A stretch of DNA of 42,509 nucleotides from Lachnospiraceae bacterium (GTDB lineage: Bacteria > Bacillota > Clostridia > Lachnospirales > Lachnospiraceae), in NCBI GenBank assembly GCA_021200475.1, contig JAJQGP010000046.1, forward strand, positions 1-42,509, read 5' to 3'. Under the pieces are notes generated by a model that was not told the DNA's origin, made no database searches, and was given only the letters and a program-made list of their open reading frames with translations. Shown piece by piece: positions 11,530 through 41,590 of the stretch. How positions within the stretch are numbered: position 1 is the stretch's first letter; the number at the start of each line of letters is the position of its first letter. The position numbers were made by a program, and so were the translations under genes.

Positions 11530-14500
11530 TCAATGCGCGGTCGCCAGTCTGCTGCTGTGCTGCCCGTGCTTTTTTTCTTTTGAAACCTTACCGATCTCTG
11601 CCGCGTGGCTGTCGCCCTTCGCGTTCATAATCAGCATTTGCAGACGATTCTCAATGTTCGCGAAGCTGACATCCGGGTCATAATCCAGCGGCAAAATCTG
11701 CGCGTCCGGGTAGATTTCTTTCAGCCTCTTGGAGATGCCGCGCCCGACCACATGGTTCGGCAGACAGCCAAAGGGCTGCAGGATGACAAAGGCTCGGCAG
11801 CCTTTCTTCGCATGATGCAGAATCTCACCCGGAATCAATACGCCCTCGCCGGCATCGAACGTGTGATGGATAATCGGGTCGCTGTCATGCACCAGCTCCG
11901 GCAGCCGGGCCGGCCGCTCATAGAGCGGATGCTCACACGCGATGGAGTCAGAAACATTATGCGCAAAATCAAACACCTCATTCGCCGTCGCCGGCCATGC
12001 CTTTTCCGTCAGCTTCCGGTCCAGATGGTATTCTTTGTTCTGGGCATTCTGATAAAAATAGGTTTTCTGAATGACGTCCGTCATTTTTGCCTCAATGATC
12101 TCAAACCCGTTCTTTTCCAGATAATCCTCGATGTCATGATTCGCACCCGGGTGGAAGTTCAGCAGGTATTCTCCGACAATCAGTACGCGCGGCTTCGGGT
12201 GGGAACGGTCATAGTCAATATTTTTCATGAGCTCGATTCCTTTTTTGAAGCCACGCCGCGCGCCGTTCAGGCCATGCTTTTCCAGACCAGAGATCAGCTC
12301 ATCCATCGCCGCCTCAAAGGCGCGGTTCGCGCTGCCCGGCACCTTCTCATACGGGCGAATCTTGCGGAGCAGCTCCTCCAGCTCATCAATCATCGGCAGA
12401 CAAAAAGCGATCTTTATGGATGCAAGAAGACTCAGCTTATACCCCGGGTGAAGGTTGTGGTAATCCACGTCATCATTCGTCACAATCGCCACATGGCTGT
12501 ATCCCGCGTCATCCAGTGCCTTGCGCAAAAGCGCACTGTAATGCGTCAGACGGCAGTCGCCGACGTATTTTGCCATCGCAATCGTGACGTCTTTATCATC
12601 GTATTTGCCGCTCCGCAATGCGGCGAGCGCTTCTCCAATCACGATCTGCGCCGGAAAACAGATATCATTATGTACATACTGTTTGCCAAGACGGATTGCC
12701 TCCTCGCGGCCCACATCCAGCGGCTCTGCTTTCATATGGTGCTGACTCCCCATCGCGGCGGCCATCAGGCGCGCAAACGCATGGGAGGTATTGGGCACAA
12801 GCAGGATTTTTTCCCTCCGGTCTGCTTTGGTAAACTTGACCGGATACGGATCTGGCAGCTCATGCACCCGCAGCGCCTCTTTTTTACGGCGGCGCATTTC
12901 CACCGTCTCCACAAAGGAGCGGACGCGGATACGCAGCGGCCCCTGGATGTCGCTTTCGTCCACCTTCAGAACCAGCGGCGTCTTGCCAGAGATTTCCTTC
13001 ATCATACGGATAATCTCATCAGACAGGTAGGCGTCATGGCCGCAGCCGAAGCTGACAATCTGCACATATTCCAGGTGTTCACTCTGCGCCGCGAGGATTG
13101 CGGTAGAAAGCATCCGCGCGTGGTAATTGTTTACAATATCCAGGCGGCTCCTGCTCAGATCTACTTTATCGATGCCAGGCACAGAATCCGCAGTCAGCAC
13201 CGGAATGCCAAGGCTCGTAAACATCTCCGGCAGATCATGATTCACCAGCGCGTCATTCTGGTAAGGACGAGAGGCCAGCACCACCGCATAGCTTCCATCT
13301 TTTTCCACCTGGTCGATGATCTCCTGACCAGCTTTTTTCAGCTCGCGCGAAAAGGTCTCCTGTGCTTCGTCTCCGGCTGCAATCGCCTGCATCGTCTCTT
13401 CCGCCGGAATGCCAAAGGTCTCATTCATATATTTTGTCAACTGACGATTGCGGTCCGTCGTTTTATGCCAGTGGAACAATGGTGCATCAAAGGGAATCCC
13501 CCAGCGTTTTTCCGGATTATCCGAATTGCGGATCACAATCGGATAGCCTTTCACCACCGCACACATGGACTCGCTCGTCTTCTCTGTATTTTCCGAATGC
13601 ACCGTTGTAATCGAAGGCATGAAAATGCGGTCCACAGAACCGTCCTTCGCGCAGCGAACTTTCTTGGACGATTCGTCCTGCCGCCGAACGAAGTGAGGGG
13701 GCGTTTCCACAGCACCGTCCTTATTTTTCCCCTTTTCCACCAGGTTCCGGATGTGTCCGTGAACGAGCTTGGCCGGGAAACAAACGGTATCCGAAATCAC
13801 AGCGGAAAGACCGTTCTCATAAATTTTCCGTGTGCTCTTATCTGAAATGCGCACGTCAAAACCGAGCGATTTCCAGAACGTCGTCCAGAACGGCATCGTC
13901 TCCCAGAAGGAAAGCACACGGGGAATGCCAATCGTAATGCCGCGCGCTTCTTTGCTTACTTTCGGATATGGATATTCGCGGAACAAAAGCTCCTCGCGCA
14001 GCCGGAACAGGTTCGGTACGCGGTCTTTTTCCGCTTTCTTTTCTTTCAGCTGTTCGCGCACGTGCACATCCTTCGGGTCGCCCAGGATCTCCCCCCGCTC
14101 ACAGCGATTGTTCGTAATCCAGGAATTCCCGTTCGAAAAGCGGACAATCGTGCGCTTGCAGTGATTGGTGCAGAACGGGCACGGAGAATTGGATTCCTGT
14201 GTATAAGAAAACTGCTCAACCGCATCCAGACCGATAAAGGTACGCGCAAAGCCTTCTGCCGCCGCACAATGCTCTTTCGTCAGCAGTGCCGCGCCGATCG
14301 CGCCCATCAGCCCCGGATAGGGTGCCCTTGTCACTTCACGGCCGGTGTACTGCTCCAGTGCGCAGAGCACTGCGTCATTCTGAAAGGTACCGCCCTGTAC
14401 AACAATCGTATCGCCGAGAGAATCCAGATTCGATATCCGAATCACCTTTGTAAAAACATTTTCTATGATAGAACGGCAGAGCCCTGCCATGATATCGCCG

Positions 14501-16200
14501 GACTGCTTGCCGTTTCGCTGTTCTGTAACAATGCTGCTGTTCATGAATACCGTGCAGCGGCTGCCAAGGACCGCCGGCTGCTTCGAAGCAAAGGCGGTCT
14601 TCGCGATCTCCTTCACCGGAATATGCAGGGAAGAAGCAAAGTTCTCCAGAAAAGAACCGCAGCCCGAGGAACAGGCTTCATTGACGACAATATTCGTAAC
14701 AATCCCGTGATCCACCCAGATGGCTTTCATATCCTGACCGCCGATATCCAGAATAAAGGTCGCGTCATCCACATACTTTGCCGCCGCTCTTGCATGCGCA
14801 ACGGTCTCCACCATATGACATTCTGTGCTCCACGCCTTTGAAAAAAGCATCTCACCGTATCCGGTCGACCCGGCTGCAAGAATGGACAGCTCGGCTCCCG
14901 CCGCACGGTAACGATCCCGAATCGCAAGAAGCGCTTTTTTCGCAACCATCAGAGGCTCTCCCTCATTCGGCGAATAAAAAGAATCCAGAATATTCTCCTG
15001 TTCATCCATCAGAACAAATTTCGTCGTTGTACTGCCGGAATCAATGCCCAGATACGCGCGGACCTTCTCCCCTGGCTGCGGCTGATAAGGCGTACACTCT
15101 TTCAGCGTATGGCGTGCCAGAAAACGCTCCTGTTCTTCCTCTGAGGAAAAGTACGGCTTTGAAGGGTCATACGTCCCAACGGCCGCCGTCCCCGCAGAAC
15201 CCCCTGCAGAATCTCCCGGTGCACAGGAATCCGCAGCAGCTGACGTTGCCTGCCCGCCATTCTTCCGGCAGTGAACCTCCGTGGATGGACCGTCCTGCCG
15301 CTGACCGGAGTGAGCGGGCATTTCCAGCCGCTCCCGCAGCTGCCCGGGCGTGTATTCCGACGTGCGGGCGGCAAACATGTTCTCCAGTGACAGTGCCGCA
15401 CCATAAGCAATCATAATCTCCGGCCGTTCCGGGATCAGAGTTTCCTCCGGGGAAAGTCCCAGCCGCTCAGCAAATACTCCGATCAGCCTAGGATTAAAGG
15501 TCAGCGGTCCGCCCTCGAAAACAACCGGTTTCTCAATATCAAGCCCCTGTGTCAGACCGCCGATGGTCTGTTTCGCGATCGCGTGAAATGCCGAGAGCGC
15601 CAGATCCTGCCGGGAAACGCCCTGATTCAGAAGCGGCTGGATATCCGTCTTCGCGTACACACCGCACCGACCGGAAATATCGTAAACACAGCTTCCCTGC
15701 GCCGCGAGTGCATTAAATTCCTCTACAGGCGTCTTCAGAACCTTCGCGATCTCATCAATAAACGCACCGGTACCGCCCGCGCAGCTGCCATTCATACGCA
15801 TATCGCTCACATTCAGCGCGCCGGTCGCCGCGTCCCGATGAAAGAAAATCATCTTCGCGTCCTGACCGCCCAGCTCAATCGCCGTCCCTACCTCCTGATA
15901 ATACACGCGCAGCGCAATCGAATTCGCCACAACCTCCTGTATATAGGGAACTCCCAGGCGTTTCGCAATTTCACCGCCGCCTGAGCCGGTCAGAGCCAGC
16001 CGCAGCACGGCGTCCGGAAAATTCTCCATAAAAGCGTCGAGCGCTAGGCACACACTATGTACCTGCGCCGCGTTATGTCGTCTGTAATCAGAATATAATA
16101 TCTGCTTTGTCTCCGGATCCGTCACAACAATCTTTGTCGTCGTAGACCCTACATCAACACCAACCAGAAATGGCCGGGAACCTGATGCTTTCTTTGGCAT
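11530..16200 (-). CDS. giant 2-hydroxyacyl-CoA dehydratase activase-family protein (BadF x2 + DUF2229)
   Basis: A 1556-residue cytosolic protein. Domain 1 (about 10-290) and domain 2 (about 380-650) are both BadF/BadG/BcrA/BcrD ASKHA ATPases, with phosphate loops VGVDVGSTTTK and GIDSGSTTTK. Activase-type cysteines are retained in MNGSCAGGTGAF plus SGRCGVY and in NEACSSGCGSF plus LGSRCTVF, so one or two [4Fe-4S] clusters are expected. A CPFCTNHC motif follows (about residue 682), then DUF2229 (GITIGIPRVLSFWETMPFW) and a long HgdB-like C-terminal region. Known activases drive ATP-dependent one-electron transfer to dehydratases; the substrate of this fused family is unknown. No dehydratase genes adjoin it. 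Two 24-residue repeats are inserted at about 294-316 and 833-857. The ATG follows AAGGAG at a spacing of about ten. Confidence 0.88.
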   Translation of the reverse strand: MPKKASGSRPFLVGVDVGSTTTKIVVTDPETKQILYSDYRRHNAAQVHSVCLALDAFMENFPDAVLRLALTGSGGGEIAKRLGVPYIQEVVANSIALRVYYQEVGTAIELGGQDAKMIFFHRDAATGALNVSDMRMNGSCAGGTGAFIDEIAKVLKTPVEEFNALAAQGSCVYDISGRCGVYAKTDIQPLLNQGVSRQDLALSAFHAIAKQTIGGLTQGLDIEKPVVFEGGPLTFNPRLIGVFAERLGLSPEETLIPERPEIMIAYGAALSLENMFAARTSEYTPGQLRERLEMPAHSGQRQDGPSTEVHCRKNGGQATSAAADSCAPGDSAGGSAGTAAVGTYDPSKPYFSSEEEQERFLARHTLKECTPYQPQPGEKVRAYLGIDSGSTTTKFVLMDEQENILDSFYSPNEGEPLMVAKKALLAIRDRYRAAGAELSILAAGSTGYGEMLFSKAWSTECHMVETVAHARAAAKYVDDATFILDIGGQDMKAIWVDHGIVTNIVVNEACSSGCGSFLENFASSLHIPVKEIAKTAFASKQPAVLGSRCTVFMNSSIVTEQRNGKQSGDIMAGLCRSIIENVFTKVIRISNLDSLGDTIVVQGGTFQNDAVLCALEQYTGREVTRAPYPGLMGAIGAALLTKEHCAAAEGFARTFIGLDAVEQFSYTQESNSPCPFCTNHCKRTIVRFSNGNSWITNNRCERGEILGDPKDVHVREQLKEKKAEKDRVPNLFRLREELLFREYPYPKVSKEARGITIGIPRVLSFWETMPFWTTFWKSLGFDVRISDKSTRKIYENGLSAVISDTVCFPAKLVHGHIRNLVEKGKNKDGAVETPPHFVRRQDESSKKVRCAKDGSVDRIFMPSITTVHSENTEKTSESMCAVVKGYPIVIRNSDNPEKRWGIPFDAPLFHWHKTTDRNRQLTKYMNETFGIPAEETMQAIAAGDEAQETFSRELKKAGQEIIDQVEKDGSYAVVLASRPYQNDALVNHDLPEMFTSLGIPVLTADSVPGIDKVDLSRSRLDIVNNYHARMLSTAILAAQSEHLEYVQIVSFGCGHDAYLSDEIIRMMKEISGKTPLVLKVDESDIQGPLRIRVRSFVETVEMRRRKKEALRVHELPDPYPVKFTKADRREKILLVPNTSHAFARLMAAAMGSQHHMKAEPLDVGREEAIRLGKQYVHNDICFPAQIVIGEALAALRSGKYDDKDVTIAMAKYVGDCRLTHYSALLRKALDDAGYSHVAIVTNDDVDYHNLHPGYKLSLLASIKIAFCLPMIDELEELLRKIRPYEKVPGSANRAFEAAMDELISGLEKHGLNGARRGFKKGIELMKNIDYDRSHPKPRVLIVGEYLLNFHPGANHDIEDYLEKNGFEIIEAKMTDVIQKTYFYQNAQNKEYHLDRKLTEKAWPATANEVFDFAHNVSDSIACEHPLYERPARLPELVHDSDPIIHHTFDAGEGVLIPGEILHHAKKGCRAFVILQPFGCLPNHVVGRGISKRLKEIYPDAQILPLDYDPDVSFANIENRLQMLIMNAKGDSHAAEIGKVSKEKKHGQHSSRLATAH
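13631..13722. repeat. in-frame palindromic insertion element in the BadF-family gene, copy 2
   Basis: About 75 nt encoding ETPPHFVRRQDESSKKVRCA (residues about 833-857). It is flanked by a 17-nt direct repeat TCCACAG(A/C)ACCGTCCTT at 13631 and 13706, exactly 75 nt apart. Its centre is the perfect palindrome GGACGATTCGTCC (13667-13679). The unit also occurs at 15251-15320 in the same orientation and reading frame. Confidence 0.65.
15251..15320. repeat. in-frame palindromic insertion element in the BadF-family gene, copy 1
   Basis: About 70 nt encoding EMPAHSGQRQDGPSTEVHCR (residues about 294-316), alignable residue by residue with the second copy. Ends are inverted repeats TGCCCGC (15251-15257) and GCGGGCA (15314-15320). 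The core stem GGATGG/CCGTCC differs from GGACGA/TCGTCC of the other copy by compatible changes. Confidence 0.65.
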
Positions 16201-41145: not shown

Positions 41146-41207
41146 GCATAGCGGTCTGGAAAACAAATGATGGTTTTTCTGTGATTTTCTTAAGAAATGG
41201 TTAAAAT

Positions 41208-41590
41208 GTAAGTGGGACGATAAGCCGGGTTCTGTCGTGGGTGATCATCTATCCAGGCCTGTCGTTGCCGACAGGCTCGAGCGACCTACCTGAGGCTGAC
41301 GGGCCGTCTGCTCCCTGTCCCGGACACGCCGGAAAACAGGGATTTCGCCTCGTTGCGGTCTTGCTTCGGATGGGGTTTACATATGCCGTCTCTGTTGCCA
41401 GATACGCGGTAGTCTCTTGCACTGCCCTTCCACCCTTACCGGCCCGAAGGCCGGCGGTTCATTTCTGTTGCACTGTCCCTGGAGTCGCCTCCGCCGGACG
41501 TTATCCGGCATCCCTGCCCTGTGAAGCCCGGACTTTCCTCGTCTGGTGTCTTTCAACTTCTGCCAGCCGCGATCACCTGTCCCACTTACG
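41208..41590 (-). ncRNA. rnpB: RNase P RNA, bacterial type A
   Basis: About 383 nt. It is the catalytic RNA that trims the 5' leader of precursor tRNAs. The ends pair as the P1 helix: GTAAGTGGGAC at both 5' and 3' edges in inverted form (41579-41589 and 41208-41218). The universally conserved P4 strand GAGGAAAGTCCGGGC is at 41540-41526. The 3' conserved box ACAGAACCCGGCTTAT is at 41235-41220. Further agreement: AACAGAAATGAACCGCC, GGTAAGGGTGGAAGGGC, GTGCAAGAGACTACCGC. Exact ends are set by the P1 helix. Promoter just upstream; the surface-protein gene follows downstream. Confidence 0.95.

Follow-up and report, generated by a model that had tools for sequence, protein, structure and literature searches.

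We consider it highly likely that GA-cis, Rfam family RF02987, is a small non-autonomous mobile element, made of two hairpins, that enters reading frames and has spread through one lineage of uncultured bacteria, which is probably the Lachnospiraceae. Its copies are dispersed, occupy sites that are filled in one genome and empty in another, add a regular net length, share a structure and lie in open frames. These observations support a preliminary description of the DNA studied here, in which two segments of one gene were read as insertions of a mobile palindromic element. The window, by which we mean the whole stretch of DNA that was analysed, is a contig of 42,509 nucleotides from a Lachnospiraceae bacterium, the 3.2-Mb genome of which is denoted G000. 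It also contains a bacterial class A RNase P RNA (41205-41588, minus strand).

GA-cis in a BadF-type gene

The gene that harbors the two segments and the parts of its two element copies are listed below. R1 denotes a covariance model that was built from 13 copies of the element.

11530..16200, minus strand: host gene, acyl-CoA dehydratase activase (BadF/BcrAD type) with DUF2229, 1556 aa (open reading frame; Pfam PF01869 and PF09989; TIGR00241)
13633..13712, minus strand: copy 2 of the element, the peptide being read on this strand and Rfam GA-cis being the plus strand of the same stretch (RF02987 38.5 bits, cut-off 34.7; R1 68.1 bits)
13648..13722, minus strand: 75 bp absent from genomes G010, G015 and G031 (alignments; 13631-13705 is an equal choice owing to the direct repeat)
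13706..13722, minus strand: left copy of the 17-nt direct repeat at copy 2 (one mismatch to the right copy)
13631..13647, minus strand: right copy of the 17-nt direct repeat at copy 2 (present once in the G010 empty site)
13680..13702, minus strand: 5' hairpin of copy 2, GCC.CC...GG.GGC (ends approximate, by eye from the alignment; covarying-pair analysis)
13637..13675, minus strand: 3' hairpin of copy 2, variable stem (ends approximate, by eye from the alignment; fold; covariation in other copies)
15252..15329, minus strand: copy 1, degenerate (R1 22.2 bits, E 3e-4, window alone with filters off)

The two copies contribute related peptide segments in the same frame, as had been claimed. Residues 293-316 are encoded by copy 1 (window 15253-15324) and residues 832-855 by copy 2 (window 13636-13707), compared with the limits of about 294-316 and 833-857 originally proposed, and the unit is wider than the 24 residues then assigned to it, with a size of about 80 nt per copy. 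The two 72-nt segments have 51 bases in common, compared with 35 for the runner-up among ungapped 72-nt stretches on either strand of the window when matched to copy 2. A search of the genome with copy 2 and its flanks returned 16 matches, including itself and copy 1 (E 1.9e-7, 77% over 65 bp). Copy 1 was not reported in the window by Rfam at the gathering cut-off, was absent from the genome-wide matches of both RF02987 and R1, and was missed by R1 at E≤0.001 in the stretch L005. The linker that surrounds it (window 15166-15324) is strongly variable among relatives in both length and sequence. None of three element peptides matched a Pfam or NCBIfam family at E≤1.

The preliminary description knew of no named element of this sort in the Lachnospiraceae, but the element already carries a name, since copy 2 is the Rfam GA-cis RNA, with the peptide encoded by the opposite strand. 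The RF02987 cut-off was reached, over the whole model, by copy 2 and by 32 places in the genome. GA-cis reportedly goes back to work by Weinberg and others in 2017. The family is typed in Rfam as 'Gene; sRNA', and in the excerpted text of the Rfam paper it is named once, in a table (PMC11701678).

Each copy is composed of two separate hairpins, of which the 5' one is constant (GCC.CC / GG.GGC), and the 3' one has a stem that varies between copies yet remains paired. A stem that changes compatibly between the two copies had been proposed (GGACGA/TCGTCC and GGATGG/CCGTCC); these letters are present, but the covarying stem shared by the element is a different one, formed in copy 2 by AATCGTCC and GGACGGTT. 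In the 13-sequence alignment, pairing is maintained in 97.2% of the cells, and both sides have changed in 10 of 19 pairs. The covariation score for these copies is 0.348 compared with a mean of 0.127 after shuffling, none of 500 shuffles scored as high, and the score falls to 0.078 or less once the partner is slid, a control that favors the structure because the structure was drawn from the same 13 sequences. The folding energies of seven copies are ordinary when compared with shuffled sequences (z from 1.08 to -1.72), and the structure therefore rests on covariation. The conserved ends of the element, nTGGAA and GCT, have no complementarity, and there is hence no terminal inverted repeat. Copy 1 does possess the inverted ends TGCCCGC/GCGGGCA that had been pointed out. 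The direct repeat described at copy 2 is indeed 17 nt long, with its copies 75 nt apart, but contains a single mismatch. A loose text pattern, initially used for finding copies, was dropped in favor of R1 because it also matched BadF homologues that lack an R1 copy.

Dispersal and empty sites

The many further copies that the preliminary description had anticipated were found, both inside open frames and outside long ones. R1 gave at least 53 matches in G000, with 150 of 1666 candidates scored, and RF02987 at least 37 at E≤0.001, with 150 of 227 candidates scored, 32 of these matches being above the cut-off. In a survey of 194 genomes, for which 21 RF02987 candidates were scored per genome so that the counts for single genomes saturate, RF02987 was matched in at least 27: G000 itself, 22 further members of its genus and 4 genomes from other genera of the family. 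There were no RF02987 matches in 14 control genomes. Among named genomes, an exact pattern for the element was found in 24 stretches, 18 of them titled Lachnospiraceae and 6 Clostridiales; a related exact pattern had no matches in viral contigs.

The element also occurs in tandem. Of 13 tandem spacings, six are of 78 bp and four of 75 bp (10/13); the pair at L168, which lies inside a 593-aa open frame, is spaced by 76 bp, and spacings of 69 bp (L102) and 79 bp (L009) are both outside long frames. Tandem arrays are present at L203 (G021:C52), with a unit of 78 bp, and at L204 (G062:C54), where the unit of 82 bp was measured by eye in a stretch of only 801 bp. In genomes G065 and G067 (L190-L202), GA-cis-like stretches lie within a larger repeat that has several hairpins and near-identical copies. 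This repeat may be a relative of the GA-cis element, and the high-scoring G065 and G067 copies, being embedded in it, were judged unsuitable as a guide to the exact ends. Dispersed repeats of a different sort, each about 90 bp long and with a similarity of 79-98% between G000 and G010, were seen at L019:962-1053, L042:803-889 and L043:2924-3010 (coordinates in the orientation of each stretch).

A Pfam scan of ten host proteins in G000 identified a Mur ligase, the alpha subunit of DNA polymerase III, an aminotransferase, two rhamnosidases, a helicase C domain, an AAA-ATPase-like protein, a permease, a BD-FAE match and one protein without a name. The HHH_6 family is present in two G000 genes, one of which is the DNA polymerase host. 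The murF host, which has two adjacent copies in G000 and one in G010, is the sole G000 match above the murF cut-off. The element thus sits, with the frame unbroken, in a cell-wall gene that is expected to be essential.

Sites that are empty in sister species, as the preliminary description had predicted, were found by alignment of the flanks. At copy 2, the reading frame is present minus 75 bp in G010, G015 and G031, and the BadF-type protein of G010 is 97% identical to that of the window. The BadF gene of G031 contains a further copy (R1 65.4 bits), inserted between YPYPK and GITIGIPRVL at a site that is empty in the window, in G010 and in G015. Copy 1 is shared with G010, has a diverged counterpart at the corresponding position of G015 and of G031, and is lacking from both G013 and G021. 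The orthologues therefore do not all carry both segments. The proposed check, of whether both are clean insertions, was answered positively for copy 2 and not for copy 1, for which a clean empty site is not demonstrable because the linker is too variable in the other relatives.

The flanks of other copies were searched for in four relatives and in G010 stretches and were then aligned base by base. Among the 30 loci examined (L017-L046), a match across the joined flanks was obtained in 19, of which 16 were kept as clean; the three left out of the 19 are L027 (ragged), L034 (which matched another array) and L044 (a tandem, net 63). In all 16 cleanly aligned copies the net length, measured against at least one relative, is 75 or 78 bp: 75 bp for L017, L019, L022, L024, L026, L030, L033 and copy 2 (L046), and 78 bp for L021, L025, L028, L031, L032, L037, L038 and L043. 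Some single comparisons deviate from these values. The totals are 87 for L017 against L159, -17 for L024 against L163, 90 for L031 against L164, and 58 for L021 against L162, the last being due to an end gap of the alignment. At L017 a total of 75 includes a large gap of 78, at L024 a total of 75 includes one of 74, and the large gap at L025 is 79 against L161. An open frame of at least 285 aa surrounds 15 of the 16 clean copies, and L026 is at the end of a 345-aa frame. Some sites scored as empty may have lost a copy by deletion rather than never having been filled. At L022, the sites in G010 and G031 resemble the left flank joined to the right, whereas those in G015 and G008 do not.

Possible mode of movement

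The extent to which the flanks overlap on the empty site is variable, unlike the duplication of constant length that a classical transposon produces. For copy 2 the overlap is 17 bp against G010 and 11 bp against G015 and G031; it is 14 bp at L037, 7 at L030, 5 at L032, 4 at both L022 and L026, 3 at L043, 1-2 at L019 and 0 at L025. Negative values, where bases are lost or ragged, were obtained at L017, L021, L024, L028, L033 and L038, and the overlap at L031 is unreadable because of its tandem.

The element was presumably moved by an enzyme acting in trans. A narrower form of this explanation, which we regard as possible but doubtful, is that GA-cis moves in the manner of an IS200/IS605 derivative or a REP element, its single-stranded form being cut by a trans-acting Y1 (HUH) enzyme. 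The two separate hairpins near the ends of the element would fit such a route, as would the overlap of 0 at L025 and, against G008, at L022, the overlap of -2 to -3 at L028 and the head-to-tail units with spacings that are mostly 75 or 78 bp. The overlaps of 17 and 14 bp at copy 2 and L037 argue against it, as does the distribution of the enzyme: the Y1 transposase family (PF01797) had no matches in G000, G013 and G031, all rich in the element, and one to three in the carriers G001, G008, G010, G014, G015, G021, G027 and G033. The enzyme may have disappeared once the element had spread.

The longest overlaps have a further property. For copy 2 (in G010) and L037 (in G015), the empty site already contains the right arm of the variable hairpin, so that the left arm added by the insertion is reverse-complementary to sequence at the target. 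The copy 2 sites of G015 and G031 contain only part of this right arm. An older scar or chance would also explain a right arm that preceded the insertion. If the left arm were copied from the target, a mobile element would here be making its hairpin by a novel route. We entertain, as a speculative extension only, the idea that the element is tuned for translation, by its length, its frames and its relation to GA, and colonizes coding DNA including essential genes, with a left arm that is perhaps copied from the target.

Reading frames and relation to known elements

A total of 88 copies from the own genome, its relatives and named metagenome bins were analysed for their position; some represent the same site in related genomes and are not independent. 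They were drawn from 89 chosen places, consisting of 88 of the 125 R1 rows and one overlapping place of the genome search. Repeats of one place, rows below about 47 bits, cut rows, L085, L086, L105 and one of L184 (50.8-51.4 bits) were excluded. Sixty of the copies are contained in an open frame of at least 200 aa that is clearly the longest at its site; the assignment is ambiguous for 11, and 17 are without such a frame. Among the 60 clear copies, frame A (ETPP...) is used in 28, frame B in 10, frame C in 3, and 19 are antisense. Frame A is free of stops in 78 of the 88 copies; for the five remaining frames this number is between 59 and 68. An insertion would lengthen the gene by 75 or 78 bp, both of which are divisible by three, and several stop-free frames are usual; such an insert of 25 or 26 residues would leave the frame open. 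Copies that broke a gene were presumably lost, and we infer that selection acts on the length of the element and that the inserts are translated and tolerated in loops and linkers. The length of the model hit, taken modulo 3, did not separate copies in long frames (52/71) from those elsewhere (11/17). A relaxed length outside genes is suggested, from a few loci only; L035, which is outside long frames, shows small indels relative to its counterparts in G031 and G015.

The element tends to lie before a GA dinucleotide. In the 78 of 88 copies that could be counted (the others had an N, an edge or a tandem neighbor), with positions counted from the last conserved GCT, a GA begins at +4 in 28 copies and at +1 in 13; each of the other twelve positions accounts for 2 to 10 copies, with 3 each at +2, +3 and +5. 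In these genes a GA that follows G most often opens an Asp or Glu codon, and this accounts in good part for ETPPxxxRRQDxPS being the commonest frame. In the 27 long open frames of the window, the GA of GGA occupies codon positions 1-2 in 642 of 1693 cases (38%) on the sense strand, compared with 616 of 1693 (36%) for GGA on the other strand. A good part of the frame bias is thus accounted for by the position of GA, with no need to invoke selection on the peptide; as the sole cause of the bias, such selection is weakened by the 38% figure.

These positions also bear on what GA-cis is. That it is a functional cis-regulatory or small RNA, with its presence in genes incidental or serving regulation from within, is suggested by the strong covariation and by membership in an Rfam family, in which it is listed as an sRNA. 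The hairpins of mobile elements can covary too. Most of the copies studied here are in long open frames, the 28 copies in frame A have their Rfam strand antisense to that frame, and the sites differ between sister species. As judged from sequence, the positions of the copies argue against GA-cis acting as RNA, and we consider this reading very improbable. That copies arise without movement of a DNA element, through recombination or gene conversion among genes with a repeat peptide in common, is more improbable still: tandem arrays exist and the peptide end KVRCAKDGS is common to copy 2 and the G031 insert, but the named hosts belong to different families, copies occur as well on the opposite strand, in different frames and away from long frames, and filled and empty sites differ by one element length.

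As a mobile element, GA-cis may be compared with several known systems. The preliminary description had likened it to the palindromic elements of Rickettsia (RPE), which are small dispersed palindromic DNAs with an open frame, inserted in-frame in unrelated conserved proteins (PMC10969869, PMC2229807), and for which a high frequency of in-frame insertion is described in the excerpted text of PMC10969869. The likeness holds for entry into genes, since GA-cis inserts a shared peptide in-frame in unrelated protein genes. It does not extend to size or to terminal repeats: RPE are 105-146 bp long, with terminal inverted repeats of 12 bp in Table 1 of PMC2229807, whereas GA-cis contributes a net 75 or 78 bp and has two separate hairpins in place of terminal inverted repeats. 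In addition, the 24 stretches matched among named genomes carry Lachnospiraceae or Clostridiales titles, not Rickettsia.

In-frame fusions with other open frames, which GA-cis resembles, are reported in the same source for the 107-bp Correia element, ERIC and YPAL; all three are listed with target duplication, and Correia and ERIC, but not YPAL, with terminal repeats (PMC2229807). GA-cis has no constant duplication. The CIR elements of Caulobacter, as described in that source, share with it the lack of a terminal inverted repeat and ends that form separate stem loops, but have stops in all six frames and were not found in genes (PMC2229807). GA-cis differs from REP/RAYT systems in that G000 has no PF01797 match and the copies are mostly genic (60/88) rather than extragenic, and from MITEs in the strict sense by having neither terminal inverted repeats nor a target duplication of fixed length. 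Palindromic candidate RNAs that covary and overlap coding (cas) genes at similar positions, some of them in Firmicutes, have been described (PMC9067536); compared by description, these are tied to cas genes, with no mobility proposed in the excerpted text. Neither mobility nor in-frame insertion of GA-cis is reported in the titles or the opening lines of abstracts retrieved from the open-licence literature.

The habit of in-frame insertion seen in Rickettsia would thus have a counterpart in another lineage, with dozens of copies in a single genome and with single-copy hosts such as murF. The number of copies and the single-copy hosts make it testable, by strain comparison and proteomics, how selfish DNA makes new protein segments. 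If our interpretation is true, the reading of the Rfam family would also change, with GA-cis being mobile DNA rather than an RNA, or as well as one.
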